DNA from: Halanaerobium saccharolyticum subsp. saccharolyticum DSM 6643
GTDB taxonomy: Bacteria; Bacillota; Halanaerobiia; Halanaerobiales; Halanaerobiaceae
Direction of reading: 5' to 3'
Length of the DNA: 64,000 nucleotides
Assembly: GCF_000350165.1 (NCBI RefSeq)
Contig: NZ_CAUI01000023.1
Span: 62,001-126,000 of the forward strand
How positions within the stretch are numbered: the first letter of the stretch is position 1; each line of letters starts with the position of its first letter. Shown piece by piece: positions 42,726 through 46,862 of this stretch. Position numbers and translations under genes: made by a program. The notes beneath the pieces were generated by a model. The model was not told where the DNA came from. It made no database searches and saw only the letters and a list, made by a program, of their open reading frames with translations.

Positions 42726-43838
42726 TTAACTTTTATTCTCTTCAAAATTCAACTCCTGAATATTTTTAAAATTACTATTTAAATTTTCTTTATTACCAAA
42801 ATGAATAGTTTGGGTTGGAAAAGCAAAATCAACTCCCAATTCTTCCATTTTTTCTTTTAATTTAAAATTAATTTCTTGTTGAATCCCCATATAAACCTTA
42901 TAATCACTATCTTTAACATAATAAACAACCTGAAATAGCAAACTAGATGCTGCAAATTCTGCAAAGTGAGCTCTATCAAATTCTGTTTTATCAATATTTT
43001 TAATAGTCTCTTCTATTATTCCGGGAACTTTTTTTAATTTACTCAATGGAGTATCATAGGTCAAACCAAAATTAAAATTAATTCTCCTTTGTTGCATTCT
43101 TTTGTAATTATTTATTCTGGAATTAACAAGATCTGTATTAGAAATTATAAGCTGTTCACCACTTAAACTTCTAATTCTTGTTGTTTTCACCCCAATATGC
43201 TCGATTGTTCCTCTATATTCTCCTGTAATAATAAAATCCCCTATATCAAAAGGTTTATCAAAAAATATTGTAAAATAATTAAATAAATCGGTTAAAATAC
43301 TTTGAGCAGCAAAGGCAATCGCAATACCACTAATTCCAAGACCAGTAACTAAACCTGTTATTTGTATATTTAGATTATCCATTACAAAAATTAAAGCAAT
43401 AGTCCAAATTAAAATTTTAATTAAAAATAAAGTAACATTTAAAACTTTAAGCTGTTCGTCATTTCTTTCTTTTTTTCCCCAATATTTTTTTATGCTATAA
43501 CTTATAATATCGCTCAATGATAAAACTACTAAAATCACAGTTAAAATCATTAAAAAATAATTAACAAAATTGTCAAGTTGGGATATAATTGTTAGCTGTC
43601 TGAAGGCAAAATAAATAGCTAACAAATATAGCAGCGGATAAATTCTCTTTTTTATTAACTTTTTTAAAAACTGAGAAAAAGATCTAGAAAATTTTTTAAT
43701 TAAGATATCCATTTTTTCTAATAAAAATTTATCGAAAAGTCTAATAGTAAAATAAACTATTATTAAAAAACTAAAAGCTAAAATATAGTTTTCTATACTA
43801 TTATTTAAAAATATTGTTGTTAATTCAACTTTCTGCAT
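42726..43838 (-). CDS. MscS-family mechanosensitive channel
   Basis: A 370-residue membrane channel that releases osmolytes on hypo-osmotic shock, important to a halophile. About four membrane segments lie in residues 15-185. The pore-lining TM3 region reads GLVTGLGISGIAIAFAAQSILTDLFN near 163-188, followed by the beta domain FDKPFDIGDFIITGEYRGTIEHIG. GGAGGGATTTTA precedes the ATG. It lies 26 bases after the diguanylate cyclase gene on the same strand. Confidence 0.92.
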   Translation of the reverse strand: MQKVELTTIFLNNSIENYILAFSFLIIVYFTIRLFDKFLLEKMDILIKKFSRSFSQFLKKLIKKRIYPLLYLLAIYFAFRQLTIISQLDNFVNYFLMILTVILVVLSLSDIISYSIKKYWGKKERNDEQLKVLNVTLFLIKILIWTIALIFVMDNLNIQITGLVTGLGISGIAIAFAAQSILTDLFNYFTIFFDKPFDIGDFIITGEYRGTIEHIGVKTTRIRSLSGEQLIISNTDLVNSRINNYKRMQQRRINFNFGLTYDTPLSKLKKVPGIIEETIKNIDKTEFDRAHFAEFAASSLLFQVVYYVKDSDYKVYMGIQQEINFKLKEKMEELGVDFAFPTQTIHFGNKENLNSNFKNIQELNFEENKS

Positions 43839-43864: not shown

Positions 43865-45277
43865 TTATCTATCTTTATTTTTCATTTTTTTCTTTTCTTC
43901 ATACATAGCACGATCAGCTTTATTAATTAATTGATCTAAACTCTTTTTATAATCAGAACTATATTCTGCTGATCCATGACTGACTGAAATTTCATAATCC
44001 TTATCATTAGATTTTGATAACTGTTTAAGCTTTTCTCTAACTCTATTCCATATTTTTTCAGCAGCTTCTTTATCACTCTGGGGTAATATTAAAAGAAATT
44101 CATCTCCGCCCAGTCTTACAACCATATCATTTCTTCTTAATGAATTCTGCATAACATTACTTACCTGCTGTAAAAGCTTATCTCCTTCTTGATGTCCAAA
44201 ATTATCATTAACTGATTTCAAATCATTAACATCAATAAAAATAACTGAAAGAGTAAAATTATTTGCTTCAGCTAAATTCATTTCCTCCTGTAAATAATCT
44301 AAACCAGCCCTTCTATTTAAAACCTCAGTTAATAAATCAGTAGATGCATATTTTCTTAAACGCTGCTCATTGTCTTTTCTCTCACTGATATCCCTGAAAA
44401 TAATCACCTTACCCTGATTTTCTACTACTTTTGCTGCAGAAAATTCTATTGGAATTGAATTGTTGTTTTTTGAGATTAAAATTGCTTCTTGATTATTAAT
44501 TTCTTCTTTTTTTTGAAAGAGAGAAGCTAAATCAATCTCAATATCCTCCTCAACAGCTGAGTTTTCTTCAGTTATCAACTCTAAATCATGACCATTATTT
44601 TTTTTTATGGAAACCTTAAAAATATCCCTACATTTTTTACCTTTAGCATCATCTAATGACCACCCCAGCATCTTCTCTGCTTTAGAATTCAAATAAACAA
44701 TATTATTCTTATAATCTGCTGTTATTACACCTTCTGCGATGCTGCTTAAAGTAACTCTATATTTTTCTTTCTCTGCTTTTAATTGCAAATTTTGTTTGTT
44801 CAATTGACGCTGCAAATTAACTAATTTGTTATTTAATCGGCTCATCTCATTATATATTTCTTCATCTTTAGCTGGTATGTTTTTATTTTTATTTTCTTTG
44901 ATGTTAGATCTTAAACTGTTAACATATTCATTATTAATTTTCATTAATTCTTCGTAATATTTAATCATATCTTCTGATTGATTGGCAGCTATTATAATAT
45001 TATCAGAATCAAGATTATTTAAAACTGTTAAAATATATGATTCAGTTTTTCCAATTAAATTAAGGTCCATTTCTCTTCCAAAAACCACATCATCTTTTTC
45101 AGCCTCTTCTAATAAAGAAAAGTATTTTTTTAAACTTCCTTCATCTATATAATTACTGAAATTCTTATTTTTTAAATTAAGCTTTTCTTTTAGTGAATTA
45201 AAAACTATTTCTTTTATTTGTCCTTCTTCATCAATTTTTAAAATAAGACCATGTGTTAATCTGTCTCTGCTAATCAT
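43865..45277 (-). CDS. PAS-GGDEF diguanylate cyclase
   Basis: A 470-residue cytosolic enzyme making cyclic di-GMP from two GTP. An N-terminal sensor-like part (about 1-100), a coiled coil (about 110-165, rich in Asn/Gln), a PAS domain (about 170-300, GVITADYKNNIVYLNSKAEKML) and a GGDEF domain. The active loop RLGGDEFLLILP near 405 is intact, with an RRND I-site five residues ahead, so product inhibition is expected. The start overlaps the stop of the CarH-like gene by four bases, implying coupled translation and a shared signal. Confidence 0.93.
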   Translation of the reverse strand: MISRDRLTHGLILKIDEEGQIKEIVFNSLKEKLNLKNKNFSNYIDEGSLKKYFSLLEEAEKDDVVFGREMDLNLIGKTESYILTVLNNLDSDNIIIAANQSEDMIKYYEELMKINNEYVNSLRSNIKENKNKNIPAKDEEIYNEMSRLNNKLVNLQRQLNKQNLQLKAEKEKYRVTLSSIAEGVITADYKNNIVYLNSKAEKMLGWSLDDAKGKKCRDIFKVSIKKNNGHDLELITEENSAVEEDIEIDLASLFQKKEEINNQEAILISKNNNSIPIEFSAAKVVENQGKVIIFRDISERKDNEQRLRKYASTDLLTEVLNRRAGLDYLQEEMNLAEANNFTLSVIFIDVNDLKSVNDNFGHQEGDKLLQQVSNVMQNSLRRNDMVVRLGGDEFLLILPQSDKEAAEKIWNRVREKLKQLSKSNDKDYEISVSHGSAEYSSDYKKSLDQLINKADRAMYEEKKKMKNKDR

Positions 45278-46323
45278 AATAATGAATCAGCCACCTTTAC
45301 TGCTTCTTTTGCGTCAGCAGCAAATCCATCAGCTCCAATTTTCTGCCATAAATAATTACTCTGCATAAAAATTCTTCCTCCAACCATAATTTTTAGTTTT
45401 GATAATTTGTCATTTTTATGAATTAGCTTTATTAAATTACTAGTTTTTTCCAGCTGTCTTGGTAGAGTAACTGAAAGAGCTAATAAATCAATTTCTTTTT
45501 CTTTCAAAATATTTATAATTTCTGCTGGTGGAGTATTTGATCCTAAATGAATAGTATCCCATCCATTCAATTCTAATAAATCAGCAACCATTCTAATTCC
45601 TAGCTCATGCAGTTCAGCACCAATACAGGTAGTTAAAGCTTTTTTCCCTTTCTCAAAAGAAGTAAAAATTTTAGGATATAATTGTGACATAGCAAGTTGA
45701 GTGACAGAAGTTGCATAATGCTCTTGTGCAACACTTATTTGGTTAAGCTGCCAGAGTCTTCCTATTTCATATTGTGCAGGTTGGAAAATTTTTAAGTAAA
45801 TATCTTCTATTAATATATCACTCTCTGCTAAATCTAAAATTAAACTAACTGCTTTTTCTCGTTCCATGTTCATTAATAAACTAAGATATTTATCTGTTTC
45901 TTTATGCAAAAAATTATCTTCTTTTATAAAGGACTCATAATGATTTTTAGAAGAATTGATACTCACATCTGCGGCAGTTAAATAACTTTTAATAATAGCA
46001 AACTCTTTTTTGTCTAAATTTCTTTCTAATACATTTGTTGTTGCTATTAAATAATTTTTTAAAAGTTTAGCTTCTATTCCTCGTTCTTTTAAAACTATGT
46101 ATAGCCACCTGTAGTAATTTGAAAAAATATTAACCTCGTCCACAAATAACGCTTGGGCAAGATAGTTTAAAATATCAGAAATGTGATCCTCACTTTTTTG
46201 AATTTGAACTTCATTATAGTAATCTTTTAATTCTGGCATTAGTAAAAGCGGCTCTTCCACTATTTCTTTTATCAAATTGTCCTTATTATTCATAACAAAA
46301 TCTTTTATTTGCTTTCTTGACAT
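45274..46323 (-). CDS. CarH-like cobalamin-binding sensor without HTH
   Basis: A 349-residue protein in two parts. The N-terminal ~150 residues are helical, unlike the MerR domain of CarH. From about 160 comes a four-helix cap with LWQLNQISVAQEHYAT, the W-x9-EH motif of B12 photoreceptors. Then a Rossmann B12-binding domain follows: AELHELGIRMVADLLELNGW (E-x-H-x-x-G, as I recall for Thermus CarH), LHLGSNTP-like, LSVTLP and VGGRIF. The His that follows W in CarH is Gln here. The lower-ligand His is kept. It is probably a cytosolic adenosylcobalamin-dependent light or B12 sensor acting on the coupled GGDEF enzyme. GAGGAG precedes the ATG. Confidence 0.85.
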   Translation of the reverse strand: MSRKQIKDFVMNNKDNLIKEIVEEPLLLMPELKDYYNEVQIQKSEDHISDILNYLAQALFVDEVNIFSNYYRWLYIVLKERGIEAKLLKNYLIATTNVLERNLDKKEFAIIKSYLTAADVSINSSKNHYESFIKEDNFLHKETDKYLSLLMNMEREKAVSLILDLAESDILIEDIYLKIFQPAQYEIGRLWQLNQISVAQEHYATSVTQLAMSQLYPKIFTSFEKGKKALTTCIGAELHELGIRMVADLLELNGWDTIHLGSNTPPAEIINILKEKEIDLLALSVTLPRQLEKTSNLIKLIHKNDKLSKLKIMVGGRIFMQSNYLWQKIGADGFAADAKEAVKVADSLL

Positions 46324-46391: not shown

Positions 46392-46422
46392 TAAAAAAAG
46401 AACCCATAATAGTTAGGTTCTT
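46392..46422 (-). terminator. Terminator of ssrA
   Basis: On the minus strand AAGAACC and GGTTCTT pair around TAACTATTATG, followed by TTTTTTT. Confidence 0.85.
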
Positions 46423-46446: not shown

Positions 46447-46802
46447 TGGTGGAGGTGGTGGGAGTCGAACCCACGTACTAAATGGCTCACCCAGTAGTTT
46501 CTACAAGCGTAGTTCAGCATTTAGTCTTACAGTAAGCACTCCGCTGAACTGGATTACTTACTGCCAGCCTGTTAAATGTCCCTTCTTCTTACAGACATCA
46601 GAAGAAGGTTAGCCTGTTTTGTATGACACCTAAGACGACTCCACAGACAGGATCCGCTCAGGCGTTAACTGCCTACGCGGCAGCTAAAGCGTAATTATTA
46701 TCGTTTGCAGATAATTTTATTTTCCCAGTGTTTAACGAGTGAAAGGAACTCCTCGGCTTGCTTCTAAAAGGTTCACCATCCAGGCGAAGCCAGAACACCC
46801 CC
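46447..46802 (-). ncRNA. ssrA: tmRNA (SsrA)
   Basis: Rescues stalled ribosomes. The 5' GGGGGTG pairs with 3' CACCTCC followed by ACCA, and the T arm is GTGGG TTCGACT CCCAC, giving the tRNA-like part. The mRNA part at 46708-46673 encodes the tag ANDNNYALAAA then TAG. Its promoter and terminator are visible, and smpB lies just upstream on the same strand. One-piece form, 356 bases. Confidence 0.96.
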
Positions 46803-46833
46803 TGAATAGCTCAAATCTATCTTTTGCATAATT

Positions 46834-46862
46834 ATTATAACTTAAAGGTCAGGAAATGTCAA
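46834..46862 (-). promoter_or_regulatory. Promoter of ssrA
   Basis: On the minus strand TTGACA (46862-46857), 17 bases, TATAAT (46839-46834): full consensus. It places the start site about 25 bases ahead of the mature 5' end and directly after the smpB stop. Confidence 0.85.

Follow-up and report, generated by a model that had tools for sequence, protein, structure and literature searches.

What does a B12-binding protein do when its gene runs into that of a diguanylate cyclase, and to which family of sensors does it belong? The locus lies in a 64,000-nucleotide stretch of Halanaerobium saccharolyticum DNA, the whole of which we call the window, and the original prediction described it as a CarH-like B12 photosensor module coupled to the cyclase. 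Our analysis of the sequence instead argues, with a probability of roughly 0.7, that the two genes form a photocobilin signalling pair whose sensor would switch the cyclase in trans through a helix in the partner protein.

Results

The gene pair and its surroundings

Both open reading frames lie on the reverse strand where they had been placed (Table 1), and the stop of the sensor gene and the start of the cyclase gene share the four bases ATGA at 45274–45277, exactly the overlap that was predicted. Just upstream are smpB and the tmRNA gene (46447–46802), and a terminator-like hairpin separates the latter from the pair. The tmRNA encodes the tag ANDNNYALAAA and has a perfect TTGACA-17-TATAAT promoter match upstream (46447–46862). 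On the other side, the MscS-type channel gene is possibly a third gene of the operon, co-transcribed with the pair; its position is conserved in the genus, including in species whose sensor pair is decaying.

The source genome carries two cobalamin adenosyltransferases and a MetH-type protein, all of which show that it uses cobalamin, and a scan of the genome contigs with the sensor protein returned only the MetH-type match. A search for heme-copper oxidase found none in the genome, which fits an anaerobe and makes the predicted anaerobic setting plausible.

Table 1. Features of the sensor–cyclase locus (window coordinates).
Feature	Position	Strand	Evidence or remark
Photocobilin-type B12 protein, 349 aa, globin–cap–B12	45274..46323	-	ORF, Pfam, PDB sequence matches, AlphaFold model
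N-terminal bilin-type globin (photoglobin), residues 1–135	45919..46323	-	Profile and model matches to photocobilins and phycobiliproteins
His47 at the SasPcob Asp270 column	46183-46185	-	Sequence alignment/profile
Trp73 at the SasPcob Trp296 column	46105-46107	-	Sequence alignment/profile
Four-helix cap (B12-binding_2), residues 140–222; G188xxW191, Q192, E201-H202	45658..45906	-	Pfam, alignment of relatives
Rossmann B12-binding domain, residues 223–349; H239 lower ligand, G261xxxP265	45277..45657	-	Pfam, alignment, fold match
Partner diguanylate cyclase, 470 aa	43865..45277	-	ORF, Pfam
Partner N-terminal domain, residues 1–105	44963..45277	-	No Pfam assignment here; weakly PAS-like in relatives
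Partner helix, residues 139–172, EEIYNEMSRLNNKLVNLQRQLNKQNLQLKAEKEK; proposed docking/coupling element	44762..44863	-	Profile searches
Cyclase PAS domain, residues 171–300	44378..44767	-	Pfam
GGDEF catalytic domain, residues 305–468; RxxD I-site and GGDEF motif intact	43874..44365	-	Pfam, motifs
MscS-type mechanosensitive channel gene	42726..43838	-	26 bp past cyclase stop, same strand; Pfam, genus-level synteny
Terminator-like hairpin	46398..46422	-	Between tmRNA and B12 gene

Relationship of the sensor to photocobilins, CarH and methyl carriers

Against all PDB sequences the sensor matched the photocobilins SasPcob (103.5 bits, E 1e-28) and AbPcob (83.9 bits, E 1e-22), with CtMerR (57.5 bits), a corrinoid protein (56.5 bits) and CarH (33 bits, E 4e-7) lower. 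Thus, a photosensor-type module does stand beside a cyclase, as predicted, but its nearest relative is a photocobilin and not CarH. Pfam assigned a B12-binding_2 cap to residues 143–214 (E 2.9e-15) and a B12-binding domain to residues 227–341 (E 4.5e-20). The AlphaFold2 model of the whole sensor had a mean pLDDT of 91.9 and a pTM of 0.88; its B12 part superposed on 8J2W with a Z of 26.4 and an rmsd of 1.8 over 208 residues, compared with a Z of about 20.6 for CarH (the comparison with 8J2W was made domain by domain; aligners follow chain order).

SasPcob aligned in two stretches, its B12 part with sensor residues 146–345 and its C-terminal globin with residues 29–100, and the domain order of the window sensor is therefore swapped: globin, cap, B12, the reverse of the B12-then-globin order in crystallised photocobilins. 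Because the founding photocobilin paper already includes members in which the B12 domain is N-terminal and others in which it is C-terminal (PMC10979010), the swapped order marks a sub-group; it neither excludes the protein nor is new. Architecture and adenosyl pocket, as read from sequence comparisons and model, support membership of the window sensor in the photocobilins.

The pocket itself is well preserved. The sensor contains W191-x9-E201H202 and E237-L-H239-E-L-G242, which correspond to the predicted W-x9-EH cap and E-x-H-x-x-G signatures, and across 24 relatives G188, W191 and G242 are invariant while E201, H202, E237 and H239 are nearly so. W191, E201-H202 and H239 align with Trp61, Glu71-His72 and His108 of SasPcob. 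Three motifs of the SignatureFinder light-responsive signature (GxxW, EH, GxxH, GxxxP) are present as GRLW, EH and GSNTP; the fourth reads AELH (A236), so the full set of four is incomplete, with the lower His kept. The residue that follows W191 is Gln192, confirming the earlier remark that the CarH His is replaced here and that the photoadduct chemistry may differ. The remark is informative, since SasPcob also has Gln at this position and its lit state is water-ligated, not bis-His (PMC10979010), which gives altered photochemistry a solved precedent.

We rejected CarH membership: no MerR-type Pfam match was found, the N-terminus is a globin, Gln192 stands at the His132 position, and photocobilins score far better. 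The NCBIfam models MtgC (56.4 bits) and MtbC (51.9 bits) scored slightly above CarH (44.3 bits), all three far below cut-off, so a better match to methyltransferase corrinoid proteins than to CarH, which the original prediction had named as evidence against itself, was in part observed. Three results answer this objection: the photocobilin match, conservation of the W/EH adenosyl pocket, and the tree, in which methyl-transfer B12 domains form a separate, fully supported clade (100/99) and the window sensor, other globin-B12 proteins, HTH-B12 proteins and photocobilins all fall outside it (how the photosensor-type groups branch relative to one another is poorly resolved, and the tree includes some long rows). 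The same clade and the far better photocobilin match led us to reject a corrinoid methyl carrier or a MetH-type B12 domain. With no MerR or other DNA-binding domain found by Pfam in the sensor, and no methyltransferase gene beside it among the open reading frames and Pfam assignments of its neighbours, a methyl carrier or a CarH-type transcription factor is very improbable.

Elsewhere, in three proteins (L049:7668-8582, L052:7883-8779 and L053:5825-6700), a CarH-like cap and B12 domain are joined to a DNA-binding domain of the XRE/HTH_3 type; these are putative analogues of CarH in which the DNA-binding part is of another kind.

The globin domain and the question of bilin

The N-terminus had been described as an unrelated helical region in place of the MerR domain. 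It is unrelated to MerR, but sequence profile and model identify it as a known domain, the photocobilin globin. Its profile matched SasPcob (8J2W) with E 3.9e-9, AbPcob with 4.2e-6 and allophycocyanin weakly, with 0.006. Modelled alone, the domain reached a pLDDT of 86.9; Foldseek placed photocobilins best (8J2X; E 3e-3) and phycobiliproteins next, and VIA-align gave Z values of 17.6 for smURFP, 17.2 for a phycobilisome core subunit and 16.2 for 8J2W, all higher than chance matches between helical bundles usually score.

At the Asp270 column, 13 of the 14 aligned proteins have Asp, genus orthologs included; His47 occurs in the window alone. The biliverdin-contacting Asp is not strictly defining for photocobilins, since the founding member AbPcob lacks it: AbPcob has His in this column and binds biliverdin weakly, at about 20% occupancy (PMC10979010). 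We found no heme oxygenase in the source genome, in any tested genus member or in most relatives; among the relatives tested, it was present only in four large genomes of one family. ChuW/HutW was below cut-off everywhere searched, and the TIGR04107 matches, which were far under the 400-bit cut-off and look like HemW/HemN relatives, were rejected as a bilin source. Because His47 replaces the Asp that holds biliverdin and no heme oxygenase was found, the window sensor is likely a B12-only photosensor whose globin would no longer need a bilin. A globin role without any tetrapyrrole, by analogy with RsbR, was also considered.

Alternatively, the protein could be a dual-chromophore photocobilin that gains red-light sensitivity from a bilin imported or made by an unrecognised route. 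Its fold is of the bilin-binding class, Trp73 occupies the Trp296 column, and the Asp persists in relatives even though heme oxygenase is missing from most of their genomes. However, His47, the weak biliverdin occupancy of AbPcob with the same residue (PMC10979010), and the failure to find heme oxygenase, or ChuW/HutW over cut-off, make a second chromophore improbable in the window sensor. Two sister loci (L066, L067) keep the biliverdin-holding Asp in genomes with no detected heme oxygenase or ChuW.

An apparently anaerobic lineage with no bilin synthesis and no obvious light biology would also suit a pair that senses AdoCbl supply, that is, B12 status, and not light; the apo and AdoCbl forms would set cyclase activity, and photolysis would be incidental. 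The cobalamin use documented by the two adenosyltransferases and the MetH-type protein is consistent with this, as is the finding that AbDPcob in the dark is less active with AdoCbl than as apoprotein (PMC10979010). In contrast, the W/EH pocket, the published mark of light-responsive B12 domains, is strictly kept, and the methyl-transfer B12 domains of the same genomes belong to another clade. We consider B12 status rather unlikely as the signal and retain light as the preferred input.

The partner cyclase and a helix common to photocobilin partners

In the partner, Pfam identified a PAS domain at residues 183–299 and a GGDEF domain at 311–468 (PF00990, E 3.3e-42); the RLGGDEF motif is intact, and the RxxD inhibitory site, RRND, lies five residues upstream. 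By motif and domain the protein is thus a predicted diguanylate cyclase, in agreement with its earlier description as an active-site-complete PAS-GGDEF protein. Its N-terminal domain is common to some of the cyclase and kinase partners of photocobilins (21 proteins compared).

Full-length sensor relatives, at 34–39% identity, turned up when 398 genomes of the phylum were searched. The next gene on the same strand, in these relatives and in the genus, encodes either a GGDEF protein or a HisKA-HATPase-REC (mostly Hpt) hybrid kinase, and such a partner adjoins the sensor in 17 of the 19 sampled genomes with a globin-B12 gene. The two genomes with no partner are G052, where the motifs are degenerate, and G268, where globin and B12 domain are in separate open reading frames. 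In G268 (L055:7754-8833) consecutive reading frames encode a 122-aa globin, with the Asp kept, and a 229-aa B12 module with no output partner beside them, which reflects either a natural fission or a frameshift.

Both kinds of partner, cyclase and hybrid histidine kinase, contain a 34-residue helix that fits the pattern SxLNNELxNxxRxLxKKNxxL and lies a short way ahead of the following domain; it scored above threshold in 16 of the 17 partners and has diverged in one (L027). When applied to 26 genomes, the helix profile (A3) gave exactly one match in 19/19, always beside a photocobilin, and none in 7/7 genomes without an intact pair. Across the 398 genomes there were 18 matches, 16 of them beside photocobilins. 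A match in G321 (L110:5248-7470) is a GGDEF gene with an IS605 OrfB/TnpB-like reading frame upstream, in the place of the photocobilin; one in G011 was rejected as a false positive, a coiled coil in a methyltransferase-like protein.

Because most helix-positive genes were in the training set of the profile, the informative results are its near-absence elsewhere in genomes rich in other GGDEF and kinase genes, the untrained matches (for example G024, G163 and G403) and cross-training. With 4000 sequences assumed, a profile trained exclusively on kinase-partner helices retrieved the window cyclase at E 2.9e-9. A profile built from cyclases outside the genus recovered some but not all of the kinase partners, down to E 8e-7.

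Since the helix and the N-terminal domain are common to cyclase and kinase partners, as expected if the sensor docks there, the PAS-like domain and helix may constitute a receiver module ahead of different outputs. We give roughly even odds to a broader proposal: that standalone photocobilins with an N-terminal globin address interchangeable outputs, a cyclase or a phosphorelay kinase, via a dedicated receiver of PAS-like domain and 34-residue helix that is otherwise unused in these genomes, and so form a light-controlled protein–protein switch. The adjacency of sensor and partner could also reflect co-regulation only.

Evolution of the pair within the genus

Orthologs with 62–63% identity occupy the same place, downstream of smpB and rnr, in G403, G400 and G405, and stand upstream of MscS where the contig reaches that far. 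The pair is under purifying selection, with a dN of about 0.27 against a saturated dS of 1.1–1.4. Synteny in other species of the genus and purifying selection establish that the sensor–cyclase pair is not due to chance. It is also dispensable and often lost, since several species of the genus lack it or have it broken: G400 has a deletion in the cyclase, G402 has lost the first 188 sensor residues, G404 has internal deletions, the G405 copy, in a poor assembly, is interrupted by a stop, and G398, G227 and G363 yielded no counterpart. A second globin-B12 and GGDEF pair, about 30% identical, occurs at a different chromosomal place in G399, G401 and G406 (L070-L072).

The broken and missing copies, together with the His47 change unique to the window, would be expected if the module were decaying and its function already lost in the source genome. 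We think this quite improbable, because neither window gene is broken, every catalytic and adenosyl-pocket residue is present, and dN is far below dS.

Discussion

Proposed mechanism

In the signalling pair that we favor, AdoCbl would be bound between the cap and Rossmann domains with His239 as the lower ligand, and the conserved residues suggest that Trp191 and Glu201-His202 hold the adenosyl group. Green light would cleave the Co-C bond. The Gln at residue 192, shared with SasPcob, predicts a lit state ligated by water or hydroxide and not bis-His, with the Glu-His helix shifting modestly. The N-terminal bilin-type globin is predicted to pack against the B12 module. Two features make it more probably a structural relay than an antenna for red light: His47 replaces the Asp, and the genome has no recognised bilin pathway. 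Sensor state would then be communicated in trans, with the N-terminal domain and 34-residue helix of the partner as the route, so that the co-translated cyclase would make more or less c-di-GMP.

This reading builds on observed domain identities, residue conservation, operon pairing, near-exclusivity of the helix and purifying selection; the AxxH in place of GxxH (A236) and the loss or breakage of the module in several genus species count against it. Published experiments found a more than tenfold rise in activity when the AbDPcob cyclase loaded with AdoCbl is illuminated; they also showed standalone photocobilins contacting the isolated AbDGC domain and activating it in trans (PMC10979010). 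Those trans effects were obtained in non-native pairs, with opposite signs with and without biliverdin, and the available part of the account names no contact interface (PMC10979010).

The 2024 description of photocobilins demonstrated enzyme control in trans in artificial pairs only (PMC10979010). The locus and its relatives provide natural sensor–effector pairs and a short, highly specific candidate interface, and therefore the trans mechanism becomes directly testable and possibly transplantable into optogenetic tools. They also raise the question of why lineages with no recognised biliverdin route retain a bilin-type globin pocket.

A literature search with the letters of the helix returned unrelated matches only. 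In the literature covered, which did not include the 2022 photoglobin paper, we could not find an earlier description of a naturally occurring split pair in which the partner has a dedicated helix found almost nowhere else. The photoglobin paper reportedly analysed gene neighbourhoods.

Comparison with known systems

As far as the accessible text of the sources goes, the photoglobin family (Schneider et al. 2022, via PMC10151467 and PMC10979010) and the BBAG-2 bilin-binding globins likewise combine a non-heme bilin-type globin with B12 domains and signalling outputs, whereas the partner helix is unmentioned in those portions of PMC10151467 and PMC10979010. CarH/LitR proteins share the cap and B12 fold (Z about 20.6), W-x9-EH and ExHxxG with the window sensor, which differs in having no MerR domain, Gln in place of His132 and a match about 70 bits weaker than that to the photocobilin.

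AbDPcob, a fusion of photocobilin and diguanylate cyclase whose activation by light has been demonstrated (PDB 8J2Y; PMC10979010), is alike in sensor, in output class and in having His at the biliverdin Asp position. However, it is one fused chain with another domain order, whereas the window pair consists of two proteins, the cyclase having a PAS domain and the partner helix. SasPcob of Saccharothrix syringae (PDB 8J2W/8J2X; PMC10979010) resembles the window sensor in its CarH-like cap and B12 domain, its bilin-type globin, its Trp, Glu-His and lower His, and its Gln at the CarH His132 position; it is also standalone and acts on a cyclase in trans in vitro (PMC10979010). In contrast to SasPcob, whose globin is C-terminal and carries Asp270 where the window protein has His47, the window sensor begins with its globin and has its own cyclase in the same operon.
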